DNA of 64,000 nt from Utricularia gibba. Lineage: Eukaryota > Streptophyta > Magnoliopsida > Lamiales > Lentibulariaceae. A program made the translations under genes and the position numbers. The notes under the pieces are model-generated. The model saw only the letters and a list, made by a program, of their open reading frames with translations. It ran no database searches and had not been told where the DNA came from. Positions 1,071 to 49,118 of this stretch are shown here, piece after piece (position 1 is the stretch's first letter; every line of letters starts with the position of its first letter). Location of the stretch: NCBI GenBank assembly GCA_002189035.1, contig NEEC01000013.1:2790001-2854000 (forward strand), given 5' to 3'.

Positions 1071-4000
1071 ATGGGTTCAGTGGATAAGGATTCCTGTGGC
1101 GGTATTTATCCAAGCAACCTTCATCTGAAGAGAGAACTAACTCAAATTCGCAAAGCTGCCAGAGTGTTGAGGGACCCCGGGACTTCTTGTGCTTCCGTGA
1201 AGCAGACTCCTTTTTCTTCGAAAACACTTTCCAAGCAACGTCACTATGGTTACTGCGAAGGTAGCCGTGGTTCTCGGATTGCAGGGCAAATTGAGAACAA
1301 TGATGATAACGTAGCTGATGGAAAAGGGACCTTGAGTGCGTGGGAGAAAGAGAAGAGGATCTCCCTGTGTAACTGGGAGAGGGATTTAAGGGGCAGGCAG
1401 AATGGGAAAGTATTTGATGATGGGATTAGTGAAGGGCAGGAGTTGTTTTCAGGCCGTGATGAAGAAATGGACGCGGTTAGCTTGAGTGATGCCAGGTATG
1501 GTGGTGGCAATGAGTGCAAGAGTGATACTTGGTTCAATGAGAAGTATGCTTCTATGGGACTGAAGTGTAGAGAGTCCAGTTTCACTCCTCCTGTTCGCAG
1601 AGCGATCAAGCAGAAGCCAAGAAAAAGTTGTTCTGGAGTGCGTGTGAAGCATCAGAACGTGAAAACGGAGAAGCAAAAGGCATGGAGTAGACATGGGAAA
1701 CGCAATGCGGATGGTGCGTCTTGTGTAGGTTTGCCAAGAGACGATTTTAGGAATTTGGTCTGTCAGTTGGGGGACACTGAGCAGGACTATGAGAACTATG
1801 AAGATGTGAAAAGAGAGTCTGCAACTTCACCTTTTCTAGCTGGATTCAAGAATACTGGATGGAAGCATTCCTCGATGAAATTTTTAAAGGGTCGTGGGAA
1901 GGATGATGATTCCATTTCTTTCAGTACCCCTGCACTGTCCACGAGCTCTTACCACAACAATGCAGTTGTAAATCCTTGTCCCGATTCGTGGGATGCAGCA
2001 ACAGGTTCTTTGAATGATGCTGATGATGAAGTAGATGATCAGTGGGATTTCCTGGGACGCAAGGGATGTGGTATTTCTTGCTACTGGTCCAAGAGGTCAA
2101 CCCCGAAGTCCAGAGGAGGGTATGGGAGTTGTTGCTCACCATCCCTTTCTGAGATCTTGAAAAGGAAAGGCAGCAGCATGATGTGCCTAAAGCAGCATCC
2201 CAGAAAGCATAATTGTTCACCTTTAAGTTCCACGAATAGGAGACTTCATTCTGGAACATTAGCTCAAAGCCTCGTCCCACTTCTTTCTAATGGTAACAAC
2301 AGGCGGAGGCTGTCATCATCAGATAGTGGGAGTAGCGACAATGATAGCTCGATGAATCTCAGAGAGCTTCACCTTGAAGCAATCAGCCCCTTGGATCGAA
2401 GAAGACTGTCTTCAGCTTGTAGAAATCAACAAGGTTCTGAACTACTATCTCTTTATGATCAGGTTGATGATGAAAATACAAGAAGCTTGAGCCATAAATA
2501 TAGACCTATTCTTTTTGATGAATTAGTTGGGCAGAATATAGTTGTTCATTCACTAAGGACTGCAGTTTCAAGGGGCAGAATCGCCTCGGTTTATCTTTTT
2601 CATGGTCCCCGGGGACAGGGAAATCTTCAACAGCAAGAGTGTTTGCTGCCGCACTAAATTGCCTTGCCATTGAAGGGGCAAAGCCTTGTGGGGTGTGCAG
2701 GGCATGTAAAAACTTTGTATCTGGTAAGAGCAGCTACCTGTTAGAAGCTGATGGATGCAACAGAAAAGGAATCAGCAACATGAGGAATCATATGAAAAGC
2801 CTCTTGGCTGCTCATCCATCATCTTTTAAAGATTTCAAGGTTTTTGTTATTGAGGAATGCCATTTGTTGCCGTCAAAGGCATGGCTGTCGTTTCTTCATC
2901 TTCTGGAAAAACCATTTCCTCGTGTTGTTTTCATATTCATTACAACAGATGCTGATAGTATACCACAGAGTATATTGTCCCGCTGCCAAAGACATCTTTT
3001 CAGCAAAATTGCTACTGGTGAAATAATAGCTCGTCTAATGAAGATATCTGCCAGTGAGAACTTGGACATAGAATCAAATGCGCTAGAGTTGATTGCTTCC
3101 AATGCAGATGGCTCCCTTCGTGATGCTGAAACCATGCTAGACCAGTTGAGTTTGCTGGGAAAGAGAATCACCATCTCCTTAGTCAATGATCTTGTGAGTT
3201 CACTTTGCCCTCTCTTTCCTTGAATTCGGTTTAGAAGAAATATTGTCCTAAATACCATGTGATTATACAATGCAGATGGGGGTGTCTCTGATGAGAAATT
3301 ACTGGAGCTGCTGGAGCTTGCCATGTCATCTAACACAACAGAAACTGTGATACGAGCGCGTGAGCTGCTGGACTCAGGTGTCGATCCTGTTGTTCTTATG
3401 TCTCAGATGGCAACTCTTATCGTAGACATGATTGCTGGAACTCGTGCTGGTGCTGTAGGAAAGTTTGGTTCTTTTTTGAATGGACAAAGCTGTAAGTAAT
3501 CCACTTGTTTGTAAATAAAAACAGAGTAACCCCTGAGTTCCATGTAAATGCTTTTGGTTTATTTCAGTGACAGAACTAGAAGTAACCAGGCTGAAGCATG
3601 CATTAGCCGTTCTCTCTGATGCAGAGAAGCACCTCAGATTTTCACCTGAGCGTTCTACTTGGTTTAAAGCTACCCTTTTGCATTTGGGTTCTCTGCCTGC
3701 ATCAGATCAAAGTCATTCAGGAAGCAGTCGAAGGCCAAGCTCGAAGGTGATCGGAGAGGACCACAGCTGTGTGCTCAGACAAGGCACCCCTTTGAACAGA
3801 AGATCTGATGCTCATTTGATAGCGGGACATTCACCTTCTCCAAACCCAACATCGGGTCCTCGGAGCTCGACCGGCAAAGATGGTGCAGTTAATACTTCTA
3901 AAAATGAGCCTGCTGAAGCAGCAACCTCTCTGCTAGATGAACGGCCAGTCTTCAAATGCATGGACTCGAAGATGTTGAGTAACATTTGGAATTGTTGCAT

Positions 4001-5053
4001 CGAGAACTGCCGTTCCAGTACACTGAGACAGCTTCTTCATGCGAATGGAAGGCTTGTGTCAATTTCTGAAATCAAAGGTGAACTCACTGATCTAAATCTT
4101 TCAGAAGTGGTTGATGGTTTTATGCATAGTTTTGTGATTTGTCATGCAGGTGGCCTTCTCGTACATATAGCATTCTCAGACAGGAACATCAGAACCAGAG
4201 CTGAAGGCTTCATTAGCAGCATCACAAACTCTTTAGAAGTTGCTTTGCAGCAAAATGTGGAGGTTAAGATCATCCTTTTACCCGAATCTCTTGTCCTGGA
4301 GCCATCCAGGGCATCGACTGGTAGAAGTTTCAATCCTGTGGAGAACCAGGAGTATTCCAGGGATGCCTGGATGGGCACTCCACAAGAGAGCAAGCCTGAC
4401 TTGCCGGATCAGCGAATCGAATCCATCATCCATGACCAGAGAATGGAAGCCACACGGCTGCAGGCAATGGAGAAGAACACACCTGGTTCTGCAGTCCGTG
4501 TCAGGCCTGAAAGGAATCAAGTCCTGCCTCAGGATAATGGGTTGGATTCGGTGACCTCAGATGTTCCCCTCCAAAAATGGAAAGGTGAGCTGGATCAGGA
4601 GATCAAAGCCTTCAGAATCAGCAACGCAGCGGTGAACCAGAAAGAACAACAAACACTCCAGAGAATCAACTGTCGCCCTCCCAAATCTCCATGTTTGTTG
4701 CAAAATAGAAGCTTGGTGAGCAATTTCAGCTTGGACAACATGTAAGTGAATAGCCCATGAAATCACAAATGTCAGAGTTTTGCAGCTAGTCTCATAGTAA
4801 CCATGTCTACAGGGGATATGAATCAGGATCAGCAAAACCACCAGGCTGTGGTGGAATATTCTGCTGGAACAACAGGAGGCCTCAAGGAAGAGTTAAGGTA
4901 AAGGCATCAACTTCATACCAAATTCAGCTTCGGTTTGATCCCACCAAACCCTCGTCGCAAATGCAGGGAAAAATGAGCAAGAACAAGAGCAGCCAGATTT
5001 CATGTTTTGGAGGGTGTGGGAAAGCAGGAAGAGACAGAGAACACCATAGATGA
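1071..5053 (+). CDS. STICHEL-like protein (DNA polymerase III gamma/tau-like AAA+ protein), frameshifted in this sequence
   Basis: Homologue of Arabidopsis STICHEL, the plant protein that controls trichome branching and contains a region like the bacterial clamp-loader gamma/tau ATPase. Exons are 1071-3193, 3276-3491, 3568-4741 and 4813-5053. A possible further in-frame 69-base intron lies at 4898-4966. The N-terminal 470 residues are basic, Ser-rich and poorly conserved. The AAA+ region begins near residue 478 with HKYRPILFDELVGQ and includes a Cys-rich zinc-binding stretch (CGVCRAC). Two single-base deletions interrupt the frame: one inside the Walker A motif at 2607-2614 (CCCCGGGG before ACAGGGAAA) and one in the G5 run at 3278-3282. 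Adding one base at each gives phase-consistent exons and a protein of about 1251 residues, close to the family length. The rest of the gene is intact, so I treat it as functional with sequencing errors. A pseudogene is the alternative. Confidence 0.85.
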
Positions 5054-5796
5054 CAGCCATTTGTTCCTTAGATTGGGACTAATCCTAATCCGCCCTTTTG
5101 TTGGTTTATAAGACAAGACTCAGAAAAACTGCTTCTTTCGAGCATGTATCTTTCAGCTCGGCTGCTGGTTCCCATACATGCGAAGCATTGGATGCTCTTT
5201 TAGGTTGCTCCTTTCGGTGTCGGTGTTATCTAAATAAAGTTGTAATAAAAAAATAAAAAATAAATGTAAATACAGTATATATAATCATATATATATATAT
5301 ATATACATTAATGAATTAATTTTAAAACGGAAAAACCTCTATTTTTTGAGAATAGGAAATATGTATGTGAGTTGGGCTTGACAGGCTGGAAAAACGGGTA
5401 ATAAAATTATTTAATATCTCAATTTAATACTGGTGGAATTTTATAAAGATCCCCTCCCTCGTTAGGCATAAATTAGGGTTACCTGTGAATCTGGCTGCTG
5501 AAGCCGCCGCGTGAAGTCTTGGGGTTCTCGAAAGGACGTCAACGGCGTTTCAGCGTTCTTGCCACGGGATAGCTCCACGGCGTCGCTTCCGCAAGGCGAT
5601 TGTTGCAGCGACAAAAGGCGGTTATTGCTTTTAAGGGATTTGATTTTGAGGTAACGTATTTTCTTTTGGATTTTTTGATGGGGAGAAGTCATTTCTGTTT
5701 TTTTTTTTTGTGTTTTACATTGTTTTTCATGTTTCAGTTGAATTTGGAATTGCTGGATCAAATCATAAGGGTGCGTTCCGTTGAGGCTAGAGAGCA
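5054..5796. other. Intergenic: STICHEL 3' region, AT microsatellite, RRN3 5' leader
   Basis: The 3' end of the STICHEL-like transcript is followed by an AT-rich stretch that includes a TA dinucleotide microsatellite at about 5286-5306. The last 300 bases are the probable RRN3 leader. They contain GTAACG at 5650 and a pyrimidine tract ending in CAG at 5738, compatible with a leader intron. Confidence 0.45.
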
Positions 5797-8700
5797 ATGG
5801 GTGCACCTGTTGTGAACGAGCTCAGTTTAGCAGATGTTGAGTTGGAGGACCATGTACGTGCTGCGCTGAAGGCTGCTGCGCAGGTATTAGTTCATGTGTT
5901 TATTGTGATCCTTATAATGTAGAGAACCATAACTTGCTAATTGTGGTTTCTACTTTCGTAGGGTAATAATGATTTTTACAATCAACTTCTGGGTGTGATG
6001 CACTCTAAGGAACGCCTTTCTGCAGAGGAGGTTGCTCTTCTTGTGGTATGTTGTTTGCCCTATAATATTTGGTAATTATGCTTTGGTCTCTGATTTCATT
6101 TTTTTATATGAGGCAGACATGTCTGAGGGCTGTTAGTGGGGCAGTTTCATCTATTGACATTGTGCATCATCACGCTCTCCTGGCTGCGGTAGTTACTGCA
6201 TTCGATTCTTACTTAAGTTCTTTCAATTTTTTATATTTGTAACTTTAATGCTTTCTGGCATATCAGGTACTCGGAATGAGTTTCTGGGATTATGGAATCG
6301 ATGTCATGGATGTGCTTGTAGAGTTCATTGTGTCACTGGTATGCATGGTGCATTAGCCATCTCCTTCCTAATCATGGCTATGACTCTAATGATATTTTTG
6401 TGTTTGGATACTGCGAATAGGCTTCGTCAAGTGGGGAATCTGTTGACTTATGCTTGGAAATGCTTGTATCCAATTTTATGCCACGTTCTGCGCGTTATTC
6501 TGAAGAGTATTTGAAGAGACCTCAAGGTTTAGCAAAGAAAGCCCAAGTCCTGGATCGGGTTCATTCTACCTTAACAAATATTGCAAATATAGTTCCATTT
6601 TCACCTGTTCGGCTTGGAATAATAGTCAAAGACAAAATGCCAAGTATTCTCCAAAAAGAACATGTGAGATCACTCCTTCCAACTCCTTATTTAATTTGTT
6701 GTCTTTTACTTATTTTATGTTATTGGAGGCCCTGGGAGGAACCCCAATTGCCCTCACTCGTACTTGTTAGTTTCCACATTCTAGGGAATGAATGCGTTGT
6801 TTTTTTTTGTTAGCTGTGTTTTCTGAAGCAGCTAATGGAACCTTACATGAGTTTATATGCGCAATAACGTTCTATGAGCCTCTTAACTTCCACCATTGGA
6901 ACATTTTTGTGAGGAATATCCTGGTTTCGGTTAGATTCTGATGTAGGGCCTGTACTCTGATGCCATGTTGTTACTAGAACATAAAAAGGAAGTTTGATTT
7001 CTTGACATTTTCTGGAATGTACTTTGTTGTTTTATATGCACATGGATCAAATGATCCACATTGTCACATTACCCGTGACAAAAAGCTTATCTTGTTTGTA
7101 TCATAGTTTATGTTTAGCCATAACAGGTCCTTGAATTGGTATCAAAAGTTAGATTGCCCAGTGACTGCCTTATGGTGGCTACTGGATGCAGATTCCGCCA
7201 GTGGATTTAATCAGAGAAGATTTTTTCAGCAGTGGGTCATGGCATGCCATGGCCCAGATGCGCTTCCCGCACCACTTTGATTATGGAAAGACTCCCAAAT
7301 ATGGGTCATGCTCCTTGGATGATTCTTTTTGAGACATCCAAGTGGGTTATGAAAAAAATGCCCCTTAGCCCCTTTCTCTTCTCTATAAAATGAGTTTCAG
7401 GTATTCTGCTGTAGTCACCTTTTGTATAGCTTGTCATATTAATCATTCAAGTGAACAGTTGTCAGTGTGAGGTTTTGTATTTCAACGTGCTGCTGGATTT
7501 AAAGGCAAGACCTTTACATCAGATTCCATGGCTGTCCCTCCCAAGCCAGAGGGATGTGCTATATTAGCGAAAATACTTCACTTTTTTAAAAATTGAATAT
7601 GGATAGAGCAATCCATAATAGACCCTTAAAATGCCCATTGACTACCCTGCTGTGACTACTTGGTTGCTCCCAAAGGTTTGAATGCCAGTGACTGCCTTGT
7701 GGTGACTGACTACTGGATGTTCCTCGTTCTCACTTTTGATTGTGGATACCCTTAAAATGGCTTTTCCTGGATGGTCGTTCTTGAGACGTCCAAGTGTTTA
7801 TGTAAAAAACTGCCCCTTTTGCCATTTCTTCTTCCTCTTTTTTCAGGTGCCATGTTGCCCTTTTTTCCCATGCATCCTTGCCTCCCACTTAAATTTTATG
7901 TGCAAATTTAAACTCTAGAGTTTATCCTTTAGTAACGCTTACAGGGCGAGCATATTGGCTTTTGTTTTCACTGATGTTACATATACAATAAATCTACATA
8001 CATTGTTATGGATGTTTTGTAGAACCCCGGCCACTTTTTGGTTCTGATTAGTGTTATAACTGAGTACTAGGATATGATATTGTTTCTTTTTTATTTGTAG
8101 TTGATGTCTATGTATGTGGAGAATATACTGATACTGGAGGGTGGTGTGATGGGAGACATTCTTGGTCGCACAGTTCTCATTGCCCTAGTTGACAGACTCA
8201 TTGACCTGGATGTAAGTGAATCAGCGTCCTAACTGGTCTGTGATTTGCGAGGTTGCTGCGGTATGAACTATGTTTTCCCTTGCAGGTAGAACTCACATGG
8301 GACGATATTCTGCAAGAAGATTTCTGCAAGGGTGTCTTTGATATGGATTTGGAGGACTTTGAGGGACATGTGGAGTATCATAATGATGATTCCTCTGAGG
8401 TTCGTTGCCTTGACTTCTTCTCAAAATGCTAGTTAAACTTTTTTGCGGAAAGGGTTAGAGACCCAAAATCCATGTTGTACATTAACAAGATGAATACTTT
8501 CCAGATGGCAAGAGAAGCATTATTTCAAAATATTTTTTGCGGAAGCAACGTAGTAGTTGCACAGAAGTTAGATAGCCTGATGGTACTTACGTTTGAGCAC
8601 CTTCAAGCCTGTTATGATTCTGGGCGTTTATCTCAGGTATAGTCTTGCATTGTGTATAGCTTCTTTGATTGCTCCTTGGAAGCTGAAATTGTTTTAATCC

Positions 8701-19843: not shown

Positions 19844-22375
19844 TCAACCAGCCTGTTGCCCTGCCATCTGTGGAGCTTCTACTACCTGCTCCGGCACCTG
19901 CTGTTCATAAGCATACTGTTGTTCCGTTTGCATCGGCTGATACGTTCGTTGGCTCCATTGTGATTCCGTCGTTGGCATTGGCTGATATGATTGTTGAGCC
20001 CATTGCTGCTGCTGTGCAGTCTCCATGGGTTGATGTGATCGTTGATTCCATTGATTAGCATAAGATGATACCCTCGGTGTTTGCCATGACGGTGCAGGAG
20101 CTCTGCTGCCCAGCTCTTCCATCACCGGTGGTCTTGCTGGCCCCATCCTTGGGGGCCTCGTGGACTTGAATAAGGTGGTCTTGGGCTCGACTGTTGAATC
20201 TGAAACTGGTTGAAAATAGCCTCTATTTCTGCTTGCCGATCCACTGATCCAAAAGCGTTCAATACAAATTCCCTCAGTGATGCAGTAGTTCCCACTCCAT
20301 GGTCTGCCATCTCCTTGATCAAATTGGCACTGGCATCAAAATGGCCTTCATCAATAAGGCCCCTGAGTACAGTGTCATACGTAGTAACATCTGGTTTCGG
20401 CTCTCTTTCGACCATTTTCGCCAAAATCGGTAAGCAGTTGCCACTCATACCCTTCTGAATCATGTAGCTAAACCATTTGTTGGCATAAGGGGGATGACCC
20501 TAAGCCCTGCCTCAACCATCTTGGTAAATTTCTCCAACATGTTATCCGCCATGTCCAGCTCTATATAAGCCTCGATCAATGTTTTGTAGGTATTGACATC
20601 GGGCGATAACGACTTGTCGCAAAGCTGCTTGTAGTACTCTTCGGCTTTATCCATCATTTGGAGTTCGGACATCCTAGCTATCATGTTGTTGAAGCCAGCC
20701 ACATCCATCTGAAAAGGTTTGGATTTCACAGCCTTACCAGACCTTTGGAATACATCCATTGCTTCCTCAACATTTCCTTCTTTTAAGCATTCATTCACCA
20801 TCATGCTCACAGTGTCTGAGTTCACTGCCTGGAAAGTGGGAGGCGTGTGATCATCCAACATGCCATGGAACAAGTCCCATGCTTCTTTCTTTCTTCCATG
20901 CTTCAGGAGTGTTTCCAACAGCACATTTCGAGTCGCTGGAACCATCCGGTAATTTCTAGCCATCAGATCCCTGTAAGACTCCATTGCCTCCTTGGGCTTT
21001 CCCTGATTGAAAAACCAATCCATGAGGGTGGCATTTACAACGCCATCATAAACCGTGCACCGTTCCTTCAACTCATCAAACAACTCATTAGCTTTCTCCA
21101 GGTTTCCTGCATTCAAGTAGCCAAGAATCACATTGTTAAAGACCAGGGAATCAGCACCATGGCCCTTATGCAACATTTCACGAAGCATGCTCACTGCTTC
21201 TTCCAGCCGACCGGCATCAATGAGCCCCTTTGTAAGGTGGCGATATGTGACTGCTGAAGGGCTATAGGGAGCATTCTCTAGGATGCATTCATACACTTTC
21301 AGTGCTTCATCTACCTCATTGGACTCACAGTGGGAAACAATGAGATTGTTGTAAGATACAACATTTGGTATGATCTCAAACTGGCGAAAGAAATACTGGA
21401 ACAGAGCTTTAGCGTCACTGTACCGCTTGGCTCGATACATTGCTGCAATAATAGCGTTGCAGGTGAACACTGTGGGCCGAATGTACTGATACGCGGACTG
21501 GCGAGCGACATATGAGGCAGAGTCGAGGTCTCCGGCACGGATGAGGGACTGAACGCGATTGTGCAGGTTTAGCCGAGGGCCGACAAGTGCAGAAGTGGAG
21601 TCAGGAAGCCGAGGCTTGTCAGGGCTGTTGGCGTTGGGGGATTTGGCTGACTGGGCCGCAGAGCATAAAGAGGAGGCTCTATCCGAAGCCGCCTCTTTCT
21701 GCGTCGGCGTTCTGCCGCGGCTTCCTCTGCTGAAGAGAAGCCATAAGACCGTTGGGAAACAAAGGGAGGTGAGGTGCCTCCGGTAGCCGAGTTTGTGGCC
21801 GTAAAATTGGGGAACTGGAAGTTGCTGGAGGGGTTTGAAGCAGGAGAATTGTGGCTGTAGGAAATAGGGAACCCGGAGTGAGTAGGACCTTGAAAGCCAG
21901 TCCCATCAACTGCGGGGGGATTGGAGAGCGGCGGATAATTTTCTACGGGGGACTCTGCAGTACGACCGGAATTGGAGTAATAGGCGTAATTTCCGGTCGA
22001 AGTGTCCCCCGAATTGGAGAAATGAGTATAATTTCCTGCAGCGGGACCCCCGCTGGTGCCGGAATCGGAAAAATGAGAGTAATTTGCTGCAGAGGGCACC
22101 GCCGTGGTGCCAGAATTGGAGAAGTTTGAGTAGTTTCCGGCCACCGGGCCATGGAACGTTGAGACATACGGATGGCCGTTTCCGGGTTCTGGCTGTGCAG
22201 GGGGAGTTCGATGCCCCCACGGGTCGATCGGCGTCCCGGCAGCGGAGGTAGAACCAATATGCCCTCTGGGATCATCAACACCATTCGCCTGAGGAGGAGA
22301 GTTATATGAGAACGGTATCGAGGAAATATAACGCCGGAGTGAGGGTCGGAGAAGGAGGAGGCGGTGGAGATGCAT
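19844..22375 (-). CDS. GRP23-like pentatricopeptide repeat protein with Gln/Trp-rich C-terminus, frameshifted in this sequence
   Basis: Resembles Arabidopsis GRP23 (At1g10270 type), an essential PPR protein of early embryo development. It is a single exon, as usual for PPR genes. The N-terminus (MHLHRLLLLRPSLRRYI) is Arg-rich without acids, suggesting a mitochondrial targeting peptide. Next comes a Ser/Asn/Tyr-rich repeat segment (residues 30-150), a basic ERRRRKRRLR patch, and P-type PPR motifs from about residue 270 to 760. The tail has repeated WNQRS/WAQQS/WSQRT units rich in Gln, like the WQQ domain of GRP23. Three single-base deletions break the frame, each in a run of five G on the plus strand: 21636-21640, 20489-20493 and 20151-20155. 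With one base added at each, the length is exactly 844 codons plus stop and no other stop occurs. I therefore regard the gene as intact and the breaks as probable sequence errors. Confidence 0.8.
21950..22140 (-). repeat. Degenerate coding repeats in the N-terminal part of the GRP23-like protein
   Basis: Four to five diverged units, roughly 20 residues apart, each carry a core of the form NY-[STA]-x-[FY]-S-[ND]-SG (for example ANYSHFSDSG, GNYTHFSNSG, GNYAYYSNSG). The repeat is visible in the DNA as recurring blocks around GGAGAAATGAG-like words. It is a low-complexity, rapidly evolving linker between the targeting peptide and the PPR tract. Confidence 0.6.
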
Positions 22376-25481: not shown

Positions 25482-26590
25482 TACCCAAAGCACACAATCC
25501 ACGCATGCTCTCCACCAGCATGGATACAATAAGTTTCACTGTGAAGTCAAGGGAAACAAGCTGGGGACTTGGGTGTGCCACAAGCTTGTACTAGAACTTT
25601 ATGGCATCGCCACCTGGAAAACCCTTCACAGAATGAACAGCCACAGAAAGCACATGTTAGCCGTACTTCATTACAGCAGAATGCAATCAAAATCAGCTAG
25701 ATTATGCACCAATGTGCCATTCACAGCACTCCCACGCATCCTTTCGTGTATTATATGTATTTACAAGCCAGAGTGGAAAAGCTAAGAAGCAAACTCCGAT
25801 TCGTCAAGAACCTCATTTTTTTATGACTCTCGTAACCCTAGCACGCGATATAGCCAATAAGAAGCCTCTAAGATTCACATCAGGCATTAAGTCTCCAGCC
25901 TCTGACTTATCGCCGGAAACCCTCCCCACGAACCAGAAATTAAGCTAAAAAATACTCAACCCGGTAGCCTCGCAGCTCAAGAAATATTCACTGAACGAGC
26001 ACAACAAGGTTCAACACCAACAAACAAGGATGTTCAGAAAGTAAGTGGAGCTCACGATACGAGAATCTGCGATCCAGGCGACGAAGAGACCAGGAGGATC
26101 GGATCTGAATCTGAGCACTGGAAGCCCAAACCCTAGCAACGCGGAGAGGAGCGAGCAAATCGGAGAGTGCGTGCGGGAGAGGCGGAGGAATCGGGAGATC
26201 TTCACTAGCCGGGAGGGGAGGGGGAGGCGGAGGAGTCTATTCTTGTACTAGAAAGAGAGAGAAAAGACGACAGTGAGGACCTCGTTGCTGACAGGCTGTC
26301 GCCAGCTAATAATACCACCAATTTCTCGCAGAAATAATAAAGTATTAATAACAAGCTAGGCTGATGCTACCCTTTTAGCATAGCTGAAGCTGAGTGGGTT
26401 TGTTGCTGTCTTGTAACTCTACTTCAACCTCAACACTCCAACCCGGATCCAACCAAAATGCACGCCATCATGCCCACATGGTGTCTATCTTGACCCGTTA
26501 CCCGACCCCAAACCCGATATTACCCATTTAAATCTTTTTTCTTTTAAAGGGCGGTTTGAAAACTGAAATCCCATGGGGAGGAGGCCCGAC
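25482..26590 (-). promoter_or_regulatory. Leader intron, leader exon and promoter of the seven-helix protein gene
   Basis: On the minus strand, 26250 to about 26055 reads as a pyrimidine-rich leader with the common plant leader word CTAGGGTTTGGG, ending in a donor-like CGTATC/GTGAGC. The intervening 500 bases to 25537 would be the leader intron. DNA from 26260 to 26590 is the probable shared upstream region between this gene and the RABA relic. No other gene is supported. Confidence 0.45.
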
Positions 26591-27735
26591 GATGGGTATG
26601 ATTCCTAGTTCAGAGTCGTTTTGATCGGTGATTCCAGCGTCGGAATGTCCGATTTGCTGTCTCGATACGAGTTCTGCATGGAATCCAAGTCCACTATCGG
26701 CGTGGAATTCGCGGCAGGTCCGATTTCCCTGCCTTTTTCCTCGTAGATTTCTACTTTTTCGGCTGTTCGGTACTTGGTTGTTACTCTTGCTAGGATTCGC
26801 TTTGCAAGTATTTCTAGTTTCGGAATCTATGCATTGCGCATTGAGATGTGAATTTGGATGAGATTTTCTTTTATTCGGAGATTGGGTGTAAAACGAGTAA
26901 AGCGTGGCTCTGAAAACGATTGGATTACTTTTAGTTACTCAATCCTTGCTTTGATGAAGTTCAGTTGCCGAAATCGAAGATGGAATCACCGATCTCAAAC
27001 GTGAAAGAGATCATTTGGAAACTCATTGAGATATCTTACTGGAATGGATTCAGACTCAATAAACTTGATACAATCTTCCTCAAAAGTTAGAAACACAGCT
27101 TGAGAATTTTTACTCTGTTGTGTTTGTGCATTTTATGCGGTAGAGCAATCGTGGTACTGTAGCGAATATGGAAGTCTCAAAATATTCATATGCATGCATG
27201 CCCATCTTCAGTTGTTGTGGATCCAACTGCAAAACTGGCGCCGTTTGATATTTCATGGCGGGATTGAATGTGCTATCCATATTTACTTATGAAATCGTAG
27301 TTCATGTCTGGTCTTTTCCTCTTCATAGGTTAAAGGGCGTACTGTGAAATCTCAGATTCGGGACACCGCTGGCCAAGAGAGAGATATAGAGCCATAACAA
27401 GTGCATATTACCAGGGAGCTCTTGGAGCTCTTCTCGTGCATGATGTTATTAAGCCAACTATTTTCGAGAACGGGATCATGCTGACTCGAACATCATCATC
27501 ATGCTCATTGGAAATGAAACTGATCTCAAGCTTCTGAGAGCTGTGAACACTGAAGATGCACAAGGCTTCGCCGAGAAGGAAGGTCTTTCGTTCATTGAAA
27601 CCTCGGCCCTGGAAGCCACCAATGTGGAGAACCATCCTCTCGGAAATGCATCAAATCATCAGCAAGAAGGGCCTTCCATCAAGTCAGGCAGCGCCAACCA
27701 ACATCGAAGAAGGCAGAACTCTGTTCCATGAAGGC
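26591..27735 (+). pseudogene. RABA (Rab11-type) small GTPase relic
   Basis: RABA proteins direct vesicle traffic at the trans-Golgi and plasma membrane. The first exon (26591-26714) retains the frame VVLIGDS and [12 protein letters not shown], but the P-loop reads GDSSVGMS instead of GDSGVGKS. Both an invariant glycine and the catalytic lysine are lost. After a retained intron of about 600 bases, the second part (27330-27735) reads [16 protein letters not shown], then a two-base AG duplication at the QERYRA position shifts the frame. Further pieces ([43 protein letters not shown]) appear in different frames. The Cys-Cys prenylation end is not found. A dead duplicate with its intron preserved. 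Confidence 0.85.
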
Positions 27736-33536: not shown

Positions 33537-33752
33537 AGCTTTTGTGCCTGTCCACTGTAAAATAAAAATCACTCAACAAAAAAACAAGTGATTTTATTGA
33601 GATTTTTTTAAAATTTTCAAATAAAAAAATAGTAATAAAACCGCTTCTCAATCCCAGTAAGTAGTCGGATTCGGGGCGGCTTACCACACACGGACGAAAA
33701 CGACCGGGAAGAAAACCGTCATTCCCTCGTGCACCGGAATCCAATTTGTGAG

Positions 33753-36640: not shown

Positions 36641-37956
36641 ATGTCTGGGTAAGTTGAAATCTTGCGCTTTTAGGCTTTCGCATTTCACTTCACCTCTTGG
36701 ATGGTTATATGGACTATGCACTTTTAGTGTTTTGTCAGAAAAAAAATTTTCGTCTTTGAGTAGTTTGCCATATTTTTGGCGTGGGTCTTAGTGTGCGATT
36801 GTAAAGTTTCAGTAAGATGCATTATTTATCTGAGTGCTTATTTTTTTTGTCGTCTGTTTGACGTATGATGATTGAGTTTGTTTTTAGTAAAATTAAATTT
36901 GTTTTGTGCAACAGTGAGGATGCAGTTGTAGTTGCAGAGGCCCCAGGACCTGCCCTTGGGGAACCTATGGACATAATGACAGCTCTTCAACTTGTGCTGA
37001 GGAAGTCCAGAGCTCATGGTGGCCTTGCCAAGGGGCTACACGAGGCTGCCAAAATTATTGAAAAGCATGCTGCTCAGCTCTGTGTCTTGGCAGAGGACTG
37101 TGACCAAGCAGATTACGTTAAGCTGGTGAAGGCACTCTGCGCTGATCATAATGTTAGTTTGATAACGGTGCCAAGTGCTAAAACCCTCGGCGAATGGATT
37201 GGTGTAAGTAAAAGCTTGCTCCAGCTTTTTTTGCTATTTCAGGAATATTCTCATTTCCTATCCTGAATTTTGTTTGGTCAGTGATGCGTATACTGTGGGT
37301 AGGCACATGGGTCTGAAGTTTGGCTCTTTGGCTCATGTTACTAAGCCTTAGGGATGAATGCAGCACCCAATATTGATCATTCCTTTTTTTGAATTTGGAT
37401 AGGTCTCACAAATATCTTCCCAAACATCAGAAAAGGAAACAAACTTTGTTATGGGCTTGTTTAATCATTTTCTTAGTTTGAACCATCCACGCACAAAAGC
37501 CAAAAGATGATTATGGATTTAATTTTCTCACGACGGTCGTCTGAGACATTCTGTCGATTTTGATGCTACAATCCATTTTTCTGATGGTTTTACTCCCTTG
37601 TGAGTACACCTTTTCTTTTATATGGTCTATTTCCAGGTTGTAATATTTACAGGGTATTTATTACCTGCTCCATGAGTATTAGCTTTAAAGATTTGATCCT
37701 TCCTGATGGCTTCATATAACCTTTCCGAAATGCCTGTTTACTCTTTCAGCTTTGCAAGATCGATTCCGAAGGCAAAGCTAGGAAGGTTGTGGGATGTGGT
37801 TGTGTTGTTGTTCATGTAAGCGCTGGTAGACTCTGAGTCTTCTTTTGCTGATTGGTTTATATGTTAACAATAAAAACTTGCTCTTATAATCTGCAGGATT
37901 TTGGGGAGGAGACTCCGGGCCTTCACATTGTTCAGGAGTATGTGAAATCGCACTAG
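36641..37956 (+). CDS. RPS12: 40S ribosomal protein S12 (eS12)
   Basis: Small-subunit beak protein of cytosolic ribosomes, with an L7Ae-like fold. Exons: 36641-36648 (only eight bases: ATG plus five), 36915-37203, 37750-37815 and 37897-37956, joining into 140 residues. The strings DIMTALQLVLRKSRAHGG, CVLAEDCDQADYVKLV and KTLGEWIG are family landmarks, and the protein ends in YVKSH. The unusually short first coding exon is fixed by the phase of the next exon (Gly codon split GG/T). Confidence 0.95.
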
Positions 37957-38207
37957 ATGGTTCAAAGGCACTTGTTGCTGCTATCAACCCCCCTTTATTT
38001 CATTCCGCTCTAGCTGTTTTGGAGCTTAGACTTGTTGAGGGATTGTGAATTTCGCCTAAGAAGGCTTTCTGAAGTTTACCTTTTACATGTCTTACGGCTT
38101 AATGCTTCTTTCGAGGAATCCAAGAGTGCTTCTTTCAACTTGCATGAAAACGTCAAACGGTAGAACAAGAATATAAAATGCATGTTGGATGCAGAAATGT
38201 AATGCAC
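37957..38207. other. Convergent 3' ends of eS12 and YY1
   Basis: 250 bases of 3' untranslated DNA between two oppositely oriented genes. Confidence 0.5.
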
Positions 38208-40139
38208 CTAATCCTCGTATTCGGTTTCTTCATCATCCTCAGCATGGGCCCAACCGTTTCCCACGTTGTCACGCTCCTCCTCGGTTTCCTCACTATCTTC
38301 TTCCTCACCGGCCTCCACTGCACGCACAGGCCAAGTCTTTTTGGGCACACTCACGTTGGTCACTGAGGTTCTGCGAGCTTTGGAAGGAGGCAGCTTCAGA
38401 TTTGGCTTCGCCCTGCTGCCCTTCTGAGCTTTACTGTTCCTACTGCTGCGTTTGGTGGCGGCATATCCATCTTGATCACTGCCTTCATCGTCATTTTCAC
38501 CATCGTTGTTCTTGTGATTATCATCGGGAAAATGACCAGGGTGCTCTCTCCTCAAATGAAGATTGAGCTTGTACTCGTGGATGTAGGCCTTCTCACATCC
38601 TTCATAGGGGCACCCATGCGGGCGCTCAGCCGACGGTGGGCCGGAAACTCCAGATGATTTTGTACTTTTAACTGACCTCTCTGTTGGAGTATATTTTGGT
38701 GGATCCAGTATGGTTGGCTGATGCTGCAATAAACTTCAAGTTAGTTCACAAGATTAAAGTCCACGGAGAAGGCCATAAACACCAGAGCATTTAAACCCAA
38801 ATCCGGAAGGGACATGAACTTTCTTGTACAAACCTTTTCGTGATGAGATGCAACATGGTTTTTCAGCTTGTATTCCTGAGCATAGCGCTTCCCACACTCG
38901 GGTATGGGCAAACATGATAATTCTCTTGAGAATGTGTCTTCATGTGTGACCTCAGATTAAAGTCCAATGAGAAGGCCTACAGAACATTTTGGACAGAGCA
39001 TGCTTAGCAAATGAAACAGAATATCGCGGTGGATACATAATAAAAAAACAATAGATATAAATGCATTAAAGCAAGAGAAGGCAACAAGAAGGTATTAGTC
39101 ATAAAAGACACAATACACACAAGATAGGGGAGAGGCATATCTTCCAACGTAATGATCACCGGCATTTTAAAATCCACCCATGTTATTATAATCCATTATA
39201 CCTCTAAACTGCACAGAATGACTAATAAGCCTAACAAAAGACTCACATAGTTCTTTGAGAAGGTAGACTTATTCACCTTACCGCACCCTTCATGAGGGCA
39301 AACATAATCGCGCTCTCCAGTGTGAATTAAATAATGCCTCTTGAGTTTCGAACTATCCAAAAATTTCTGCGAATACCAGGCACTGATAAGTACTCACAAG
39401 ATAGAGACCCAACATTAGAATTCTTCTATAACGGCACACATGCTCCGATTCATCTACAACACATCTAGAAGAATATACACAGAGATCTCCCAAACAAAAT
39501 GAAATGTCTGTGATATCCTGAGAACAACAAACAAGCTTGACATTTTTAATGATAAAATGTGAATGCTTTCTCAAAAGGACTACCTTCCCACAATTCATGT
39601 ACTGGCACACATGTTGTCTCTCCCCATGAATATGAGAATGCTTTCTCAAAGCTCCAGCATCAATAAAAGTTTTCCCGCATCCTTCATAGCTGCAAAGAAA
39701 AAGAACTTCTGTTGTTGGCTCGGGCTCAGGCTCTGGTTCTAATCCTTTCGGATCTTTCAACTTCTCTTTTATGGCATTCAACGTGGCCTCTGGTGAAGAT
39801 TAATATAACTAGATTAATCATCCAAAACAAAACAAGACTCCGATACTGAAATTATGACTAATAGCTTTCAGAATACCGTTGACCCATTTCAGAACAAGGC
39901 ATTTCCCACCAGTGGAGATAAGGTCTTGAGGAACCCTTAAAAAAGAGGATGCATAAACAGGGTAAAAATCAACAGAAACGAGAACAGGAAACGCGTGCCA
40001 CTTTAGAAGCAGAAAGTAGAAATCATACGAAAAAACTGATCAGTTACCATTCCTTAAACCATTTAACAGGGGGAGCGAGGCTCCTGGACTTGGGCATGGG
40101 GCGTCGGTCAAAGAACGAACGGGTAACATGAGAATCCAT
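38208..40139 (-). CDS. YY1: YY1-type C2H2 zinc-finger transcription factor, one frameshift in this sequence
   Basis: Plant YY1 homologue, a nuclear C2H2 factor known in Arabidopsis to act in ABA signalling and with Mediator. Exons (minus strand): 40139-40048, 39935-39877, 39789-39584, 39366-39277, 38976-38834 and 38723-38208. Zinc fingers: CSYEGCGKTF...H, CQYMNCGK/KFLD...H, CPHEGCGK/AFSL...H, a fourth beginning CPYP, and a last CPYEGCEKAYIHEYKL. The C-terminal 110 residues are basic, then acidic, ending DDEETEYED, as in Arabidopsis. Exon 5 lies between two phase-0 introns but is 143 bases long, so one base is missing. It must be missing near 38900-38902, because there the frame switches from CPYP to ECGKRYAQEYKL. 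With that base the protein is 368 residues. Confidence 0.87.
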
Positions 40140-40771: not shown

Positions 40772-40969
40772 TTAGCGCAGCCTCCTGGCCTCTCTTTCGG
40801 ACTCCAGCAAGGTGAGGATATCACCCTCGCGAACTGGGCCCTTGACGTTCCTCATGATGAACCGGTTCTGATCATCCACGAACTTGACTCTCACTTGAGT
40901 GACCTGTCCTCTCGACCCTGTTCTGCCAATCACCTTCACCACGATCGCATGCTTGATCTGAGAATCCAT
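40772..40969 (-). CDS. RPS28: 40S ribosomal protein S28 (eS28)
   Basis: Cytosolic small-subunit protein near the mRNA exit channel. A single coding exon of 65 residues, the exact family length, with [20 protein letters not shown] and the C-terminus SEREARRLR. The ATG at 40969 is preceded by AAGCTTGTTAGAG/CAG, a likely 3' splice site. A leader exon with donor CTGAG/GTGCGT lies near 41365. Runs in the same direction as YY1 downstream and MRS2 upstream. Confidence 0.96.
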
Positions 40970-41912
40970 TGCTGCCTGCTCTAACAAGCTTCAGCAAGCA
41001 TAAAACCATCAGTACAACAGATTTCTCCAAATGGTGCAAGAGACCGCGACAGCGCATCAAAAAGTTATAATGCACAAAGAATCAGTCATCAAGGAGCTGA
41101 ATTTAAACCTAATTGGACCTTAATCCCCCATACAGAACCGTGTCAAAATGCCCCCAAAATCAACCAAAAAAGCTTTTTTTTTTTCAGTGAAGCATCCCCA
41201 ATCAATCCCAGTACGAAGATACGCTTTGAACCAGTGAGCAAGAAAATCATAAATCCCAATACTAAGATACGCCTGATCTTGAACTAGTGAGCAAGGAAAT
41301 TATAAACTGCATCCGCATACGCGAAGAAAGTAACACCTTCGCATTAAAATAGACAAAAGCACGCACCTCAGAGATCAAATTCAGATTTCCGAAGAACGGC
41401 AGCAGTCTACAGAACAATCCCTAGATGAGAGAGCCACCATCACTATATCAAGCATGTAATTGGGCCTAGCCCAATAACGCACATCCACCTGCTTCTAGAT
41501 TGCGTTGCGCATTTAATTAAATTCCAATACTACTTTCAAGAAAAACCGTTTTCCTTTAGTTTTTTTATAAAAAATAAATAAATTAACAAATCAAATTTAT
41601 ACAAGAAATATTGGCCTTTTGGAAATTGACAAAATGATGATGATAACTCTAAGAATATATTTAGAACATTTCTTGGTTACGTTGTTTCTGTAAGGACGCT
41701 CCCAAGCAAACGCATATGCCACACCAGCAGTTTCCTGAGTGTGTGCATTGTAATGGAGCTCGGTGCCTAGAGAAACAACGGGATCATCTATAAATATGGC
41801 CATGGGTACTCACAGTTAGCTCCATGGGCAACTGAAGGGATCGGATTCATTCCTCTGTAGGTATTATTTAGAAGACACAGCTAAGTATGGTGTGGAGATG
41901 TATGACTTGGCT
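40970..41912 (-). promoter_or_regulatory. eS28 leader intron and promoter; 3' flank of MRS2
   Basis: On the minus strand the eS28 leader exon is near 41420-41366 and the leader intron runs to about 40975. A near-palindromic pair of site II boxes (TGGGCCTAGCCCA, 41461-41473) lies just upstream of the leader. DNA from 41500 to 41912 is AT-rich and ends in the MRS2 3' region. Confidence 0.55.
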
Positions 41913-43712
41913 TCAAGATCCCAGGAGCTTATTCCATCTGGCGTATCCCAGGACAAGAATGAAGCAAACCAATGAGATGACCGTCATCAGGCCGACGGCC
42001 TCGCCGAAGATCCCGTTGATGCTGTAAAGAGTGCAGGGGATGTTCATCCCGAAGATCCCAGCGAAGAGGGTGTCTACAGCTACAGCGAAAGAGGTGATGG
42101 TTAGAACCAGCTGAAGTTGAATGAGCTCGTTTCTCTTGTTGTCCAGCTGGATGTTCACATAGTCTTCTGTGTCGTCGATGTATTCACGCACCTGCAGGTT
42201 CACAAAGGCATAGCGAAATGTGATGATCCAACAAAATCAATAGTGATTCCGGTGGAGATGGAGGAGGCAGCCGGATTACTCAAAGGAGCTTACTGAAAGT
42301 ATTTTATTCCGTGTGCCATCCAGTTGCATGAAATATGCTTCCAGCAGCATTTCGAGGTCCTCCACATCTTGGTTGTGTAGCGTGTTGCTCAAAATACTGC
42401 CGCTTCTTGTAGAACCAGTGCGGCGAAGCTGAGAGACATAAGGGATCATCGTGCTATTTGATGCATGAGCCGCAGCCATGGCCTCAGCTTGCTGGTTCTG
42501 CAACCACTTCCTTGTTACGTACAGTTGAGCCATATCTTCGTTGTCATCCAAAAGGTGTTCTATTTCATCCCTCACCTATAGCACATGTGAAACACTTGAC
42601 CTTAGACCATGTATAAATCGAAAACCTGAAGATAAAGATCTGCCTTATTATGGACAGAAACGTTCCAGTGTTCAAAATCTAAAGAATGATGAACGGTTTA
42701 CCTTTTGAACTCGTGCAAGCAACCGAGTAAGGTTGCTTTTCAAGCTTCGAACATGCTCAAGATTCTTGGTGCTTACATTTCTAGCCAACTCATCTAGAGC
42801 AGGATAAGCATCCCTCTCGAGTTCAGCAACACTGGAGTCCAGGAACGAGCACACAACCTCTAATGCCATTTCCAGAACCTGAAACTCAAAGGGCAGTTCG
42901 TCTTGCAACCCTTCAGCAGCTTCAGGCCCTGGAAACCACTTTCCATCTACTGGAGATACAAGTTGATTATCTTGCGGGGGCTGCCTAGTAGGACTCTTCA
43001 GTGGTAATTGTCGCCTGAGTTGATCAACGAAGGGAAGCACCTCCTGGCGCAGTGGATCAAGGAGTAATAGCTCTTCAGCGGTCACTATGGCTCTTATAAA
43101 CTCCAAGTTGACAATAATGGCTTTTTCCCTTGCTGAAAGGGGGAGACAATGCAACATGAGGCAACATTTTTTGTCACACAAAACAATCTCTCAACCCACA
43201 AAAGTAGAATATATTTTCAAGGGGACACTAGTTTGGAAAAATTTTCATGATCACATGCATTAGTAGAGCTTATGCAGATTGATCGACAAATATACACATT
43301 AACCATGGCCCTTTGTAGCAATTAAAAACAACCAGTAAAGGAAAGGATGAGCAGGTGCCACACGAATCGAGGCATGGAAAGGATATAAAAAGAGATCCCC
43401 AGACAAAACAAAAACAAAAAAAAAAGGAAGCTTTTTTCCTCACTAACCAAGGATGCTTGAGGACTGAGAGAAGATGGGCCCTAAGATCCTCAAATCCCTA
43501 GAGGGCAACGAAGCCCGCTTAATGATAAAGTTCTTATCGCATTCGATGAGTTCGGACTGCCCAGCCCGATCCATCCTCATCCAGAGACGCGAACCGGAGG
43601 CCTTCTTCTTCACAACAACCTTGCTCGTGGACGGCCCCTCCACCACCGAAGACGGCGGCGGAACAACCTGGGTGGCGGTGGTCTGTTTCCTGCGGAAAGT
43701 CAATTTCCCCAT
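41913..43712 (-). CDS. MRS2/CorA-type magnesium transporter (MRS2-4-like)
   Basis: Membrane channel for Mg2+ of the CorA-MRS2-ALR1 family. Exons (minus strand): 43712-43448, 43132-42702, 42575-42294 and 42191-41913, joining into 418 residues. Conserved strings [43 protein letters not shown] and [15 protein letters not shown] precede the signature GMN at residues 374-376, which ends the first of two C-terminal membrane helices (352-373 and 389-410). The protein ends [11 protein letters not shown]. The N-terminus is short and basic. The exon layout and the MGKLTFRR start resemble the MRS2-4 clade. The target membrane (ER, plastid or plasma membrane) is not decided by the sequence. Confidence 0.94.
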
Positions 43713-44542
43713 TTCCACCGAATTGCTCTCGTAACCAACCACCTGGAATCGCAAAAACAGGCACCTTCACGGGCAGAATGATCGATATTCCCCAGCAGAT
43801 TCCTGGTATTTCATCCATAAAATACTGGAAACTGCTCTCAACACTTGATCTCTTGGATCTTCTTCTGGAGTGGAGCCTGGTGTTTTAGAAATAAACAAAT
43901 AATCCCACTTAATAAATATATATTTTAAGGTTATTGACTATTTTATATTCAATTATTTTTACACGCGTCAAACCCTATGAATCAGGGTAGTTATAGATTG
44001 GGCCGTTTCCCAACCAGTCCAATCCACTTGTTAATCAAGATGATTAGAGGTGGAAAACCGGTTCCACCCCCAAACTGCATTTAGCGCACGTGATCGTATT
44101 GCAAATTACAATTCGTAAACATGTTAGAAGATGAACTACTCATTTTGCATCAAAGATAGATTTGAGGTTGGAAACTGCTCGAACCGAAATCGAACCAATA
44201 GTAATTAAATTTTAAAATGTACTATGCTTATTGTCAACATTCTAAATCTAATGCATGCTTTGCAATACGTTTTGAAGAATAATATATTCTAAATTAGAAT
44301 AAGGGGAACAAACTATGCTCAGAAGTTAATAAATATAATAAATTGTACTTTAAAATAATTATGAGTCAAGGACACAATTAATAATTTACTTATTTACATA
44401 TATTCCGAGAATTTTATTTCCATATCTGCAAGATCCTCTCTTGGTAATGGAGTGGCGGATGCACAGTAGGGTGATGACGAAGCAGCCAACGCAAAAATTT
44501 CTGAGTGACAAGAGGTGATCGAGGGGGGAGGGGGGGATCGGA
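43713..44542. other. MRS2 leader/promoter and 3' flank of the four-B3 gene
   Basis: The MRS2 leader occupies roughly 43713-43880. The remaining DNA is AT-rich. A G6AG7 purine run at 44523-44536 lies just beyond the B3 gene's stop codon, which shows that runs of six or more G can be present in this assembly. Confidence 0.4.
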
Positions 44543-45672
44543 TCAGTGAGTGACGGAGAAGACGAGGGATCCGTTCTCCCAGCGAAGCCTCATCTCTCTC
44601 CCGACCTGCAGTCTCTTTTCCCGGATGATCTTCCCCCATTTACCTACAAGATTGTAATAGCTTCCGCGCCATTTCAACTTCATCACATAAACCTCGCCCG
44701 TATCATCATCTCGTGCATCGATTTCGAGTTGCCGCTCGTTCCTCAGTTGCTCCCGAGCCTGAGCCGACCAGTAGAACAAGATATGGTCCTCCACGGGCTT
44801 GCCCGGAAGAGTTAGGAATGGGTGATTGGTGTCGACGTCGGACAAGGTGAGAACTTTCTTCACAGGCCAGTTATCAGATGCGGCTGCTGTTAGGACATGG
44901 CCTTCTTCTGGGACTGAGAAGTATAGACAGTTGTTTCGCCATCGAATCCTTATCTCCTGACCAGCGCCAAGACCTTTTTGCCTAATTATGTTGCCCCACT
45001 TCCCCATGAGGTTGTAGTAGTTGCCTCTCCATCTCAACTTCATGGCATGTACATCCCCTGTTTCATAATCACGGGCGTTTATCGAAACTTGCTCTTCCTT
45101 TCTCAGTCTTTCCCTTTCTTGAGGCAGCCAATGGACAAGAATGTGATCTTCGACTGACTTACGAGGCAGGGGGAGGAAGGGGTGATTTGGATCAACATCA
45201 GAAGATGTCAGCATCTTTTTAATAGGCCAGTGGTCCTGTTCCACCGGCACCACCGGCATTGGAGCCGGTGGTTCTGGTACCACAGCAGGCATCTGGTGCT
45301 GAGGAACTGAGAAATGCAAGCACCCATTATACCAGCACAGCTTGATTTCCTGGCCTACATCCAGAACTTTGCCTCGAACAACTTTCCCCCATTTTCCAAT
45401 GAGATTGTAATAGCTACCACGCCACTTCAATTTCATCACATACATCTCACCTGTGTCATCATCCTGCGCATTGATGCCCACTTGGCTCTCTGAGCGCAAG
45501 GTTTCCCTCTGGTCTGGAGTCATGTATACCAGAATATGAGTTTCTACTTGTTGCCGGACAAGGTCAAGAAAGGATGGGTTATGTCAACATCTGAAAGTGT
45601 CAATGCCTTCTTAATAGGCCAGTGATCCTGCACCTCAGGTACGGTATCATGGTAAGGTGTTCTCCTCATTTC
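44543..45672 (-). CDS. Protein with four tandem B3-like DNA-binding domains, one frameshift in this sequence
   Basis: Four successive units of about 95 residues share W-P-[IV]-K-K-x-L-T-x-S-D-V-D near their start, HPFL, V-E-x-H-I-L, ARD-x-(D/E)TG, then MKLKWRGSYYNL-x-GKWG and a final W-x-N-x-C/S-L-x-FSVP. This layout matches plant B3 domains of the DUF313 group, which bind DNA in the nucleus. Unit 1 covers 45672-45300 and the last ends at the stop, 44543. The frame breaks once in unit 1 at about 45554-45557, where HPFLTLSGNK runs into a stop. Adding one base gives LSRQQVETHILV, matching the other units in length, and a total of 376 residues divisible from the ATG at 45672. A leader exon probably lies near 45880-46080. 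Which gene it regulates cannot be told. Confidence 0.72.
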
Positions 45673-47478
45673 ACCAAATCGAAAAAGTAAGAATATACTA
45701 GGAAAATGGCCTGTGAGGTTCCACAAGAAGCGGAAACTCTGCAGATGACCGATCACCCAAATGAAAAATTGAATCTTTTAGCCAATCGAATAACGAAGCC
45801 AAAGGGATTGAGTGATTCCCAAGTCACATACAGAACCAAAGCCACTTGATCAACATATGCATACCATCGGAATGCTCGCTCCAGCACCAATCGAAAACCC
45901 TAGATCCCAGCAAGGGTCGCGAGGACGAAGGCTAAAACAAGACCTCCAAACCACAACTTCTGAGGAACACCGGCGGCCTCCCGACGATCAACTAAAAACC
46001 GCGGCCAGCCGCCGTGGTTCAGCCCAGAGGAATTTGGACAGGAGACAGATTCTACGGAGACACGGTGGAAGAAAGAGAATCCAACACTGAGAGCGTGAAC
46101 GCGCGAGTGAAATTACCGTTCCGTCCCTTCTTCACTAATTTACTAGTAACTAACCAATCAACACCTAATCTCTTGACTAAAGCTACCTCCGATACCTTAT
46201 TTTCAGAAAATTATTTTTTTACTTACCGATAATCCTTACGTCCTCATCGAAACTCAGTTGCTGATATCGATTATCAAATGAGATTGAAATTAAAAAAAAA
46301 AGATTGTAATAATTGTCGTGGTTCTGACCGGGTGAGCGAACCAACGGCACCAACTGAATTGACAATAAATTAGTGGAGGACTTTTTAGGCAGGGTGAGTG
46401 GTGGTTTCCACAAATGATGAATATAAATAAGTAATCCTGAACCTGTATGTCGACTTTCCGTCTTGTCTGTTTGAGAGCTTGAAGCTGGATTTAAGCCCAC
46501 CTTGGGATGAAATTGAAGCCCTCGTCACCGATTTTGTGTGCTGCTGCGTGAAGGAGAAGGTGATTGGTGTTTCTAGCCTTGTGGGTTTTGTTTTTAGTGG
46601 TGTCTGGGGTTGACCCACTTTCATTTTCTTCTGTTGGCTGTGATCTGCTGCTCCAGCTGCTTCTATGTTTGGAAAGTTATTTTTCCAGCAGAAAGATGAT
46701 TGACCCTTTTTCTTTTTAAAAATGGATCTTTGATCCTGTGGCGCTTGTTCGACCACGATGCTGTTTTCTTTCTGAGCGTTTTAATTCAACCGTTTTGTGC
46801 CGTTCTGAGCACTGAATCTTCTGGGTTTGGTTTCAGAATTTGCTATCCGGGTACATACAGCTTTTTGTGTTGTGAGGTATTCCTTTCTTTTTAATCTCTG
46901 TCTTTGATTTTTGAATTTGTTTAGGGGGTTTTTATGACTACACGATCCTTATGAGAAACTTCAGATACGCGTGCTGCGCTTGAAGATCTCAGCTGCAGAT
47001 TTAAACTTATGTTTCTAGGAGATTCGATTGGCTTATCTGCAAGTATGCTCCCGGCGGGTTCAGAGTTTTCCCGGTAATTCTAAACTCCATAGTTGCACTG
47101 TACTGCCTGTGGTGATAACTGTGCATTTCGGCGGTTAAGTTACATCAATGTTCCTGGTCTCTGAGCATATGCTTTAAACGCTCCTTTGGAGCTTGTGTAT
47201 GATTGGGATTCTGAAAAAGACCAGTTTTCCCCGTAGTAAAAACCATGCTTTGTTTTTTTAGTGGACATATGAAAACTAGGTTTACATTGAGATGTTTTTC
47301 CTAAGCTTCATTGCATCCCTCACTAAAACATTTGCTTTTGTGTTCTTACCAAAATTCTTTTTCTGAATGTGTTTGGATCCACAGGAGCTTCTCAAGTGCT
47401 CGATATTGCTAAAGACAGATACCACATCTGAAGGCATCAAGAGGAAGTGTTGCTATTCCGTGTGTATTGGAGATCTCT
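45673..47478. promoter_or_regulatory. Divergent upstream region of the B3 gene and the Tubby-like gene, with long TULP leader
   Basis: The minus-strand leader of the B3 gene lies around 45880-46090. AT-rich DNA at 46130-46290 is the likely divergent promoter. From about 46450 to 47478 the sequence is the TULP leader, with a donor-like AGAAG/GTGATT at 46558 and a 3' splice site CCACAG at about 47378-47383. Long spliced leaders are usual in Tubby-like genes. Confidence 0.45.
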
Positions 47479-49118
47479 ATGTCTTTTCGAAGTTTAGCTC
47501 ATGACTTGAGGAGCAGTTTTCGGAGCTTGTCAAGGAGGAGCCTGGATGTGAGGCTTCCTGGACACAGTAGGGGAAAATCACATGGTTCATTTCATGATTT
47601 GAATGAACTTCCCTCAGTTATTCAAAATAGTCCCTGGGCTAATCTCCCCCAGAGCTGCTTTATGATGTGATCAGAAGATTGGAAGAGAGTGAGAGCACAT
47701 GGCCGACGAGGAAGCATGTCGTCGCCTGTGCCGCTGTTTGCCGCACTTGGAGGATCATGTGCAAAGAAATTGTTAAAGCCCCAGAATTATGTGGAAGGCT
47801 TACATTCCCAATTTCCTTGAAGCAGGTGTTTTTCTTTTTTTCCTCTCATACGACATCCTGCTCGAAAGGCAGTTCATTTGGTAATGTAGTGACGTGTGTT
47901 TCCTCGTGTCTTGTCTGATCTGCAGCCTGGACCTCGTGATGGAGCCATCCAATGTTTCATCAAGAGAGACAAGTCTCATTTAACCTACCATCTGTTTCTG
48001 TGCCTCAGCCCTGGTGAGTGTAGATGAAAATGTGACTTTTTTCTGCTTGTTGTTCATTCACATTGCTGATGTTCTGCTCCTCTTGTCCAAGTTCTTGATC
48101 TTCTTGTCTTCAAATCCACTTGTCTCTTGTTCTACTCCTCTTCTGTATCTTCTCTATCAGTACGCTTATGTGCGTGCACTCGCCTGCTTCCTGATGCTGA
48201 TTTGCCCTGCAGCTCTACTGGTTGAAAATGGCAAGTTTCTTCTCTCTGCGAGGCGAACTCGTAGAACCACTTCTACTGAGTACATCATCTCCATGGATGC
48301 AGACAACATTTCGAGATCGAGTAGCACGTACATTGGAAAGCTAAGGTACTCCCCATTTTCTCTCCTGGGATTCTATGCTTCTGTGAGACAGTTAACTGCA
48401 ACGTCTTTTCGCAGATCGAATTTCCTTGGCACAAAGTTTATCGTTTATGATACGCACCCCCCTCACACGTGTGCACAAGTCTCGCCGCCGGCTAGATCCA
48501 GATCGAGCCGCAGGTTTTATTCCAAAAAGGTCTCCCCGAAGGTGCCAACAGGGAGCTACAGGATCGCCCAGATTAGCTACGAGCTGAATGTGCTGGGACA
48601 AGGGGGCCGAGGAGAATGCACTGCATCATGCACTCCATCCCCGCTTCATCCATCGAGCCCGGGGGAGCGCACCGGGGCAACCGGAGCTTCTCCCACGGCC
48701 GCTGGAGGACTCCTTCCGGAGCATCTCTTTCTCTACATCGCTGGATCAGTGCTCGGAGTTTGGCAGCTCAAGATTCTCGGATATGGGGGTCCTAAACGAA
48801 GGCGAGGATGATCGCAAGACGAGGCCGTTGGTTCTGAAGAACAAAGCCCCTCGTTGGCACGAGCAGCTGCAGTGCTGGTGCCTCAACTTCCGGGGACGCG
48901 TCACGGTGGCGTCCGTCAAGAACTTCCAGCTGATCGCGGCCACGCAGCCTGCCGCCTCCTCTACGCAGGCGGCCCAATCAGACCATGACAAGATCATCCT
49001 GCAGTTCGGCAAGATCGGAAAAGATGCGTTCACGATGGATTACCGGTACCCACTCTCTGCATTCCAAGCTTTCGCGATCTGCCTGAGCAGCTTCGACACG
49101 AAACTGGCGTGTGAATAA
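47479..49118 (+). CDS. TULP: Tubby-like F-box protein, three frameshifts in this sequence
   Basis: Plant TULPs combine an F-box, which docks to SCF ubiquitin ligases, with a C-terminal tubby domain that binds phosphoinositides at the plasma membrane. Exons: 47479-47825, 47926-48013, 48213-48345 and 48415-49118. The N-terminus has MSFRSL and [12 protein letters not shown], then the F-box (WANLP, then [15 protein letters not shown]), then the tubby barrel ([38 protein letters not shown]). It ends FDTKLACE, the tubby C-terminus. Single-base deletions occur in the C5 run at 47646-47650, in GGG at 48595-48597 and in the G5 run at 48661-48665. Correcting them makes every exon phase-consistent and gives 424 residues. 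The gene is probably intact in the plant. Confidence 0.88.

Follow-up and report, generated by a model that had tools for sequence, protein, structure and literature searches.

An assembly of Plasmodium falciparum made with HGAP and Quiver carried about 25,000 indel discrepancies until it was corrected with short reads, and homopolymers accounted for 93% of the indel discrepancies (PMC5964635). The Utricularia gibba genome was likewise assembled with HGAP, at 88x (PMC5793159). The frame losses described here resemble the P. falciparum errors in being small homopolymer indels that produce apparent frameshifts in intact genes, and in that species most were removed by short-read mapping. They differ in position and direction, as the P. 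falciparum errors lay mostly in tracts of more than 14 bases in an AT-rich genome, whereas in U. gibba short G/C runs hold the apparent coding errors, almost all of which are deletions. A second parallel is provided by nanopore assemblies (Kastor, PMC12007338), in which most indel errors are false deletions, chiefly after four to five equal bases, although there the reads were nanopore reads and A/T runs dominated. Frameshifted pseudogenes, like our loci, are recognisable genes that have lost their frame, but a mixture of lesions is expected of them, such as that found in a Rab-type GTPase copy in the same stretch of DNA.

The window analysed here is a stretch of 64,000 nucleotides (C375:2790001-2854000) of the U. 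gibba genome (100.09 Mb in 516 contigs). A preliminary description had listed ten single-base losses of frame in five otherwise intact genes and named systematic under-calling of G and C by the assembly as the probable cause. Inspection of all six frames around each site confirmed every one of the ten; each is a change of -1 with no intron between the frames, and the count is a lower bound (at least ten), small exons having been traced only in part. We consider it highly probable that these are consensus errors left over in a long-read assembly and that the plant carries one more base per site. The duplicated counterpart of the window, on the opposite strand at C412:385001-475000, was aligned to it, and its copies of the STICHEL, YY1 and TULP genes are exactly one base longer at each site, as is a relative on contig C2 for the B3-like gene. 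Overall, the affected genes are one base short of a paralogue or of the family at every tested site, and they show no other lesion.

Two of the breaks lie in the STICHEL-type AAA gene on the plus strand. The first, at 2607-2614 in exon 1, interrupts the Walker A motif HGPRGTGKSS, where an added N (CG[N]GGGACA) restores the frame; alignment to the duplicated copy places the gap at 2611, opposite a T. The second, at 3278-3282 at the start of exon 2 (MG[N]GVSDEKL), is placed at 3280, again opposite a T, with ATGGGTGGTG in the duplicated copy versus ATGGG-GGTG in the window. An alternative placement of the lost base outside the run, as MG[V/L]VSDEKL, was ruled out by the duplicated copy, which reads MGGVSDEKL. 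The GRP23-type PPR gene on the minus strand lacks one base at each of three C5 runs, at 20151-20155 in its C-terminal part, at 20489-20493, and at 21636-21640 in its N-terminal part. An N at the three sites joins three pieces, the longest of which is 481 aa in raw form, into a single frame of 865 aa in which PPR repeats are detected. No counterpart of this gene was found on C412, and its site calls rest on the continuity of the open frame.

The YY1-type zinc finger gene (minus strand) is broken at 38900-38902, where CC[N]GAG within HVCPYPECGKRY corresponds to TACCCCCATTGTGGG in the duplicated copy; the alignment puts the gap at 38899/38900, opposite a C. Similarly, the first complete repeat of the B3-like repeat gene (minus strand, 45554-45557) reads TC[N]CGGCAACAAGT against TCTCGGCAACAAGT in the C2 relative, which places the gap and has a T there. 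The loss reported at this site is present, but the codons are Ser-Arg (TC[N] CGG) and the loss adjoins a C pair. Three further breaks lie in the tubby-like (TULP) gene on the plus strand. In exon 1 a base is missing at a C5 run (47646-47650) within the F-box sequence LPPELLYDV, placed at 47648 by the duplicated copy (CTCCCACCAGAG), which has an A. In exon 4 one base is missing at 48595-48597, placed at 48597 by CTGGGGACG versus CTGGG-ACA with a G in the paralogue, and another at the G5 run of 48661-48665 (EPGG[N]SAPGQPE), which the same alignment places within 48661-48668. Once joined, TULP shows an F-box together with a full Tub domain (1-256/256, E=2e-108). The expectation that one base per site would regain the frame was thus borne out, with N giving uninterrupted GRP23 and TULP proteins and continuity in STICHEL, YY1 and B3.

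Less firm is the proposal that six sites are runs of five G or C that a sixth would restore. At six sites a G/C run of five or more does remain, but a six-base run is one possibility only, because loss of an interrupting base (GGGTGG to GGGGG) leaves a run identical to that left by shortening G6 to G5. Comparison mostly does not fix the identity of the lost base, and the paralogue bases (T, T, A, C, G and T) differ by site.

The G/C context was evaluated against a null model in which each base of 35.6 kb of coding sequence was deleted in turn and the run left at the junction was measured. A random coding deletion leaves a G/C run of at least five in 0.57% of cases and an A/T run of at least five in 1.37%. 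The window breaks left such a G/C run in 6/10 cases (expected 0.06; P=6.8e-12) and an A/T run in none, and a run of at least three in 9/10 (expected 0.9). The B3 site was scored as G2 in this test; the preferable reading, C2, leaves the result unchanged. Localisation of the breaks uses protein frames and so allows some freedom of choice, with the STICHEL, TULP and YY1 alignments fixing the place within a few bases. This enrichment, together with the mixed damage of the Rab pseudogene, upholds the earlier argument that random decay would not give such a spectrum.

The Rab-type pseudogene (26400-27725, plus strand) carries a nonsense codon, changes of +2, -25 and -11, and other indels, while its C412 partner reads through. 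Real decay in this window therefore looks different from the ten frame losses, and none of the mixed lesions of this control (stops, insertions, longer gaps) was found in the five genes. Likewise, as the preliminary description had it, none of the ten breaks is an insertion; the sole coding insertion seen in the window copy is that of the Rab pseudogene. Differences between the window and C412 concentrate at the third position of codons, before as well as after the tested breaks. Past the first TULP break, substitutions amount to 0-5% at the first two codon positions versus 27-49% at the third, and the part of YY1 after its break shows this three-base pattern too, in another register. Such periodicity indicates that the out-of-frame parts have been evolving as coding sequence, and the loss of codon-position constraint by which a pseudogene would be recognised was not seen at the tested breaks in the C412 comparison. 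It is supporting evidence only, because a young pseudogene (part 2 of the Rab copy) keeps its periodicity too. The C412 copy has -1 losses at G/C of its own, one in STICHEL (aligned to window position 4564) and one in a bZIP gene (window position 52959).

These comparisons bear directly on the possibility of true pseudogenes, with all five genes in decay since a whole-genome duplication, which we regard as highly improbable. The genome does contain duplicated regions and real, fresh pseudogenes such as the Rab copy (26.4-27.7 kb), and STICHEL, YY1 and TULP each have a C412 partner. However, all ten lesions are single-base deletions, with no nonsense codon, insertion or longer gap as in Rab; no duplicate of GRP23 was found on C412; and the identical type of lesion occurs in actin, HSP90 and HSP70 genes.

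The latter came from a search for breaks in five families (HSP70, HSP90, actin, KCS and GRAS), a break being scored where two family matches abut in different frames at contiguous family positions too close together to hold an intron. Of 26 stretches whose DNA was read, four were set aside (L069 as divergent, L080 as -2 judged from family length, L081 as a true pseudogene and L082 as an intron). By hand counts, which are approximate, there were 23 further intron-less breaks in ~19 of ~75 large-exon genes, all of them -1. Of the 23, 21 are compatible with a base lost in or next to a G/C run, examples being actin at C1:8287632, GRAS genes on C142, C255, C375 and C412, and HSP90 on C451; in one KCS gene (L058) the loss may lie inside GCGCG and not in a G run, judging by the family motif MGGAA. 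The remaining two, the first break of an HSP90 gene (L072) and an HSP70 break on C304/C241, are A/T-compatible, so that the absence of A/T contexts, which had been asserted for the window and holds there, does not extend to the genome. Assignment of this HSP70 break to a G6 run was ruled out by an intact neighbouring copy, which locates it in the T-rich codon that follows. The two HSP70 loci are near-identical, with 16 substitutions over 4.5 kb and one frame-losing deletion common to both. That deletion may be real and inherited, judging from these two sequences, and the error explanation need not hold for each -1 break.

Mutations naturally concentrate in homopolymers, and the breaks could be real one-base deletions due to unusually frequent slippage at G/C runs in the lineage of this plant; some would be heterozygous or tolerated. 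The HSP70 deletion common to two diverged contigs is in keeping with this. Nevertheless, natural slippage also inserts, and no insertion occurs among 35 breaks (10 in the window, 23 in the other families and 2 in the C412 copy); moreover, about a quarter of the surveyed large-exon conserved genes would be broken. We therefore judge real slippage slightly less probable even than pseudogene decay. Less probable still, in our estimate, is a genuine excess of one-base G/C-run deletions that extends through the lineage, affects functional genes and is compensated at transcription or translation. Restoration of the proteins by programmed ribosomal frameshifting or transcriptional slippage, for which the physical slipperiness of G/C runs might speak, is scarcely credible, since dozens of unrelated sites would depend on it, some with runs of only two or three bases, in genes whose paralogues need none.

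Consensus error as the source of the breaks was also examined through redundant contigs. Contig C316 (38 kb) repeats part of C412 (848374-858373 compared) at 99.6% identity, and all 13 gaps in these 10 kb are deletions in C316, where natural alleles would be expected to split evenly (two-sided P about 2e-4). The one-base gaps comprise four at G/C and five at A/T. C316 is probably a poorly covered contig, and the one-sidedness of its gaps indicates that the assembler's errors are deletions, A/T included.

Called run lengths give a less direct view. The loss was described as partial, and nine G/C runs of at least six are indeed called in the window; of the three six-base runs quoted in support, that at 44523-44528 is correctly placed, and the others are actually at 675-680 and 37988-37993. 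Three of the nine lie in frame within genes and are called correctly (21914 in GRP23, 48457 in TULP and 55535 in RPL3). Should all six five-base sites really be six bases long, roughly two thirds of the true six-base coding runs in the window would have been shortened. A comparison of five- with six-base runs had been proposed as a test, but the called G/C run lengths form a smooth spectrum with successive ratios of 0.219, 0.228 (4 to 5), 0.205 (5 to 6) and 0.192, and no six-base deficit is visible. The test is insensitive here and would miss the under-calling, because no shortfall shows in the called lengths by themselves.

Systematic under-calling, the explanation first offered, fits all of the following: breaks of -1 only, their position at G/C, codon periodicity on either side of them, similar breaks in housekeeping genes across the genome, differences between redundant contigs that run one way, and the published assembly method. 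The platform would be PacBio continuous long reads assembled by HGAP with Quiver at about 70-88x. Single-molecule reads would miscount bases in or beside G/C runs, the consensus step would settle one base short, and the shorter count would be kept without accurate short-read repair. Under-calling of this kind would be genome-wide, partial and nearly one-directional, and the extra base would be present in the plant's own DNA, as the paralogue and family alignments suggest. The class of artefact is already known and involves no new biology; the breaks almost certainly belong to the assembly and not to the plant.

With such errors many healthy genes would look broken, inflating counts of lost, truncated and split genes taken from the U. 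gibba reference, and claims of gene loss in this species warrant checking with short reads. A truncated DCL3 has been published for U. gibba, with 5' RACE (PMC8333044). A DCL-like locus at C213:2761967-2762970 has two RNase III domains and no Dicer-dimer match, although a missed match is possible; this arrangement agrees with the published truncated DCL3 and is not accounted for by a simple loss of frame. Within the window, a C/D-box snoRNA Z161/Z228 (Rfam RF00328, 67.5 bits) was detected at 37497-37589 on the plus strand, within the region of an L7Ae-type gene.
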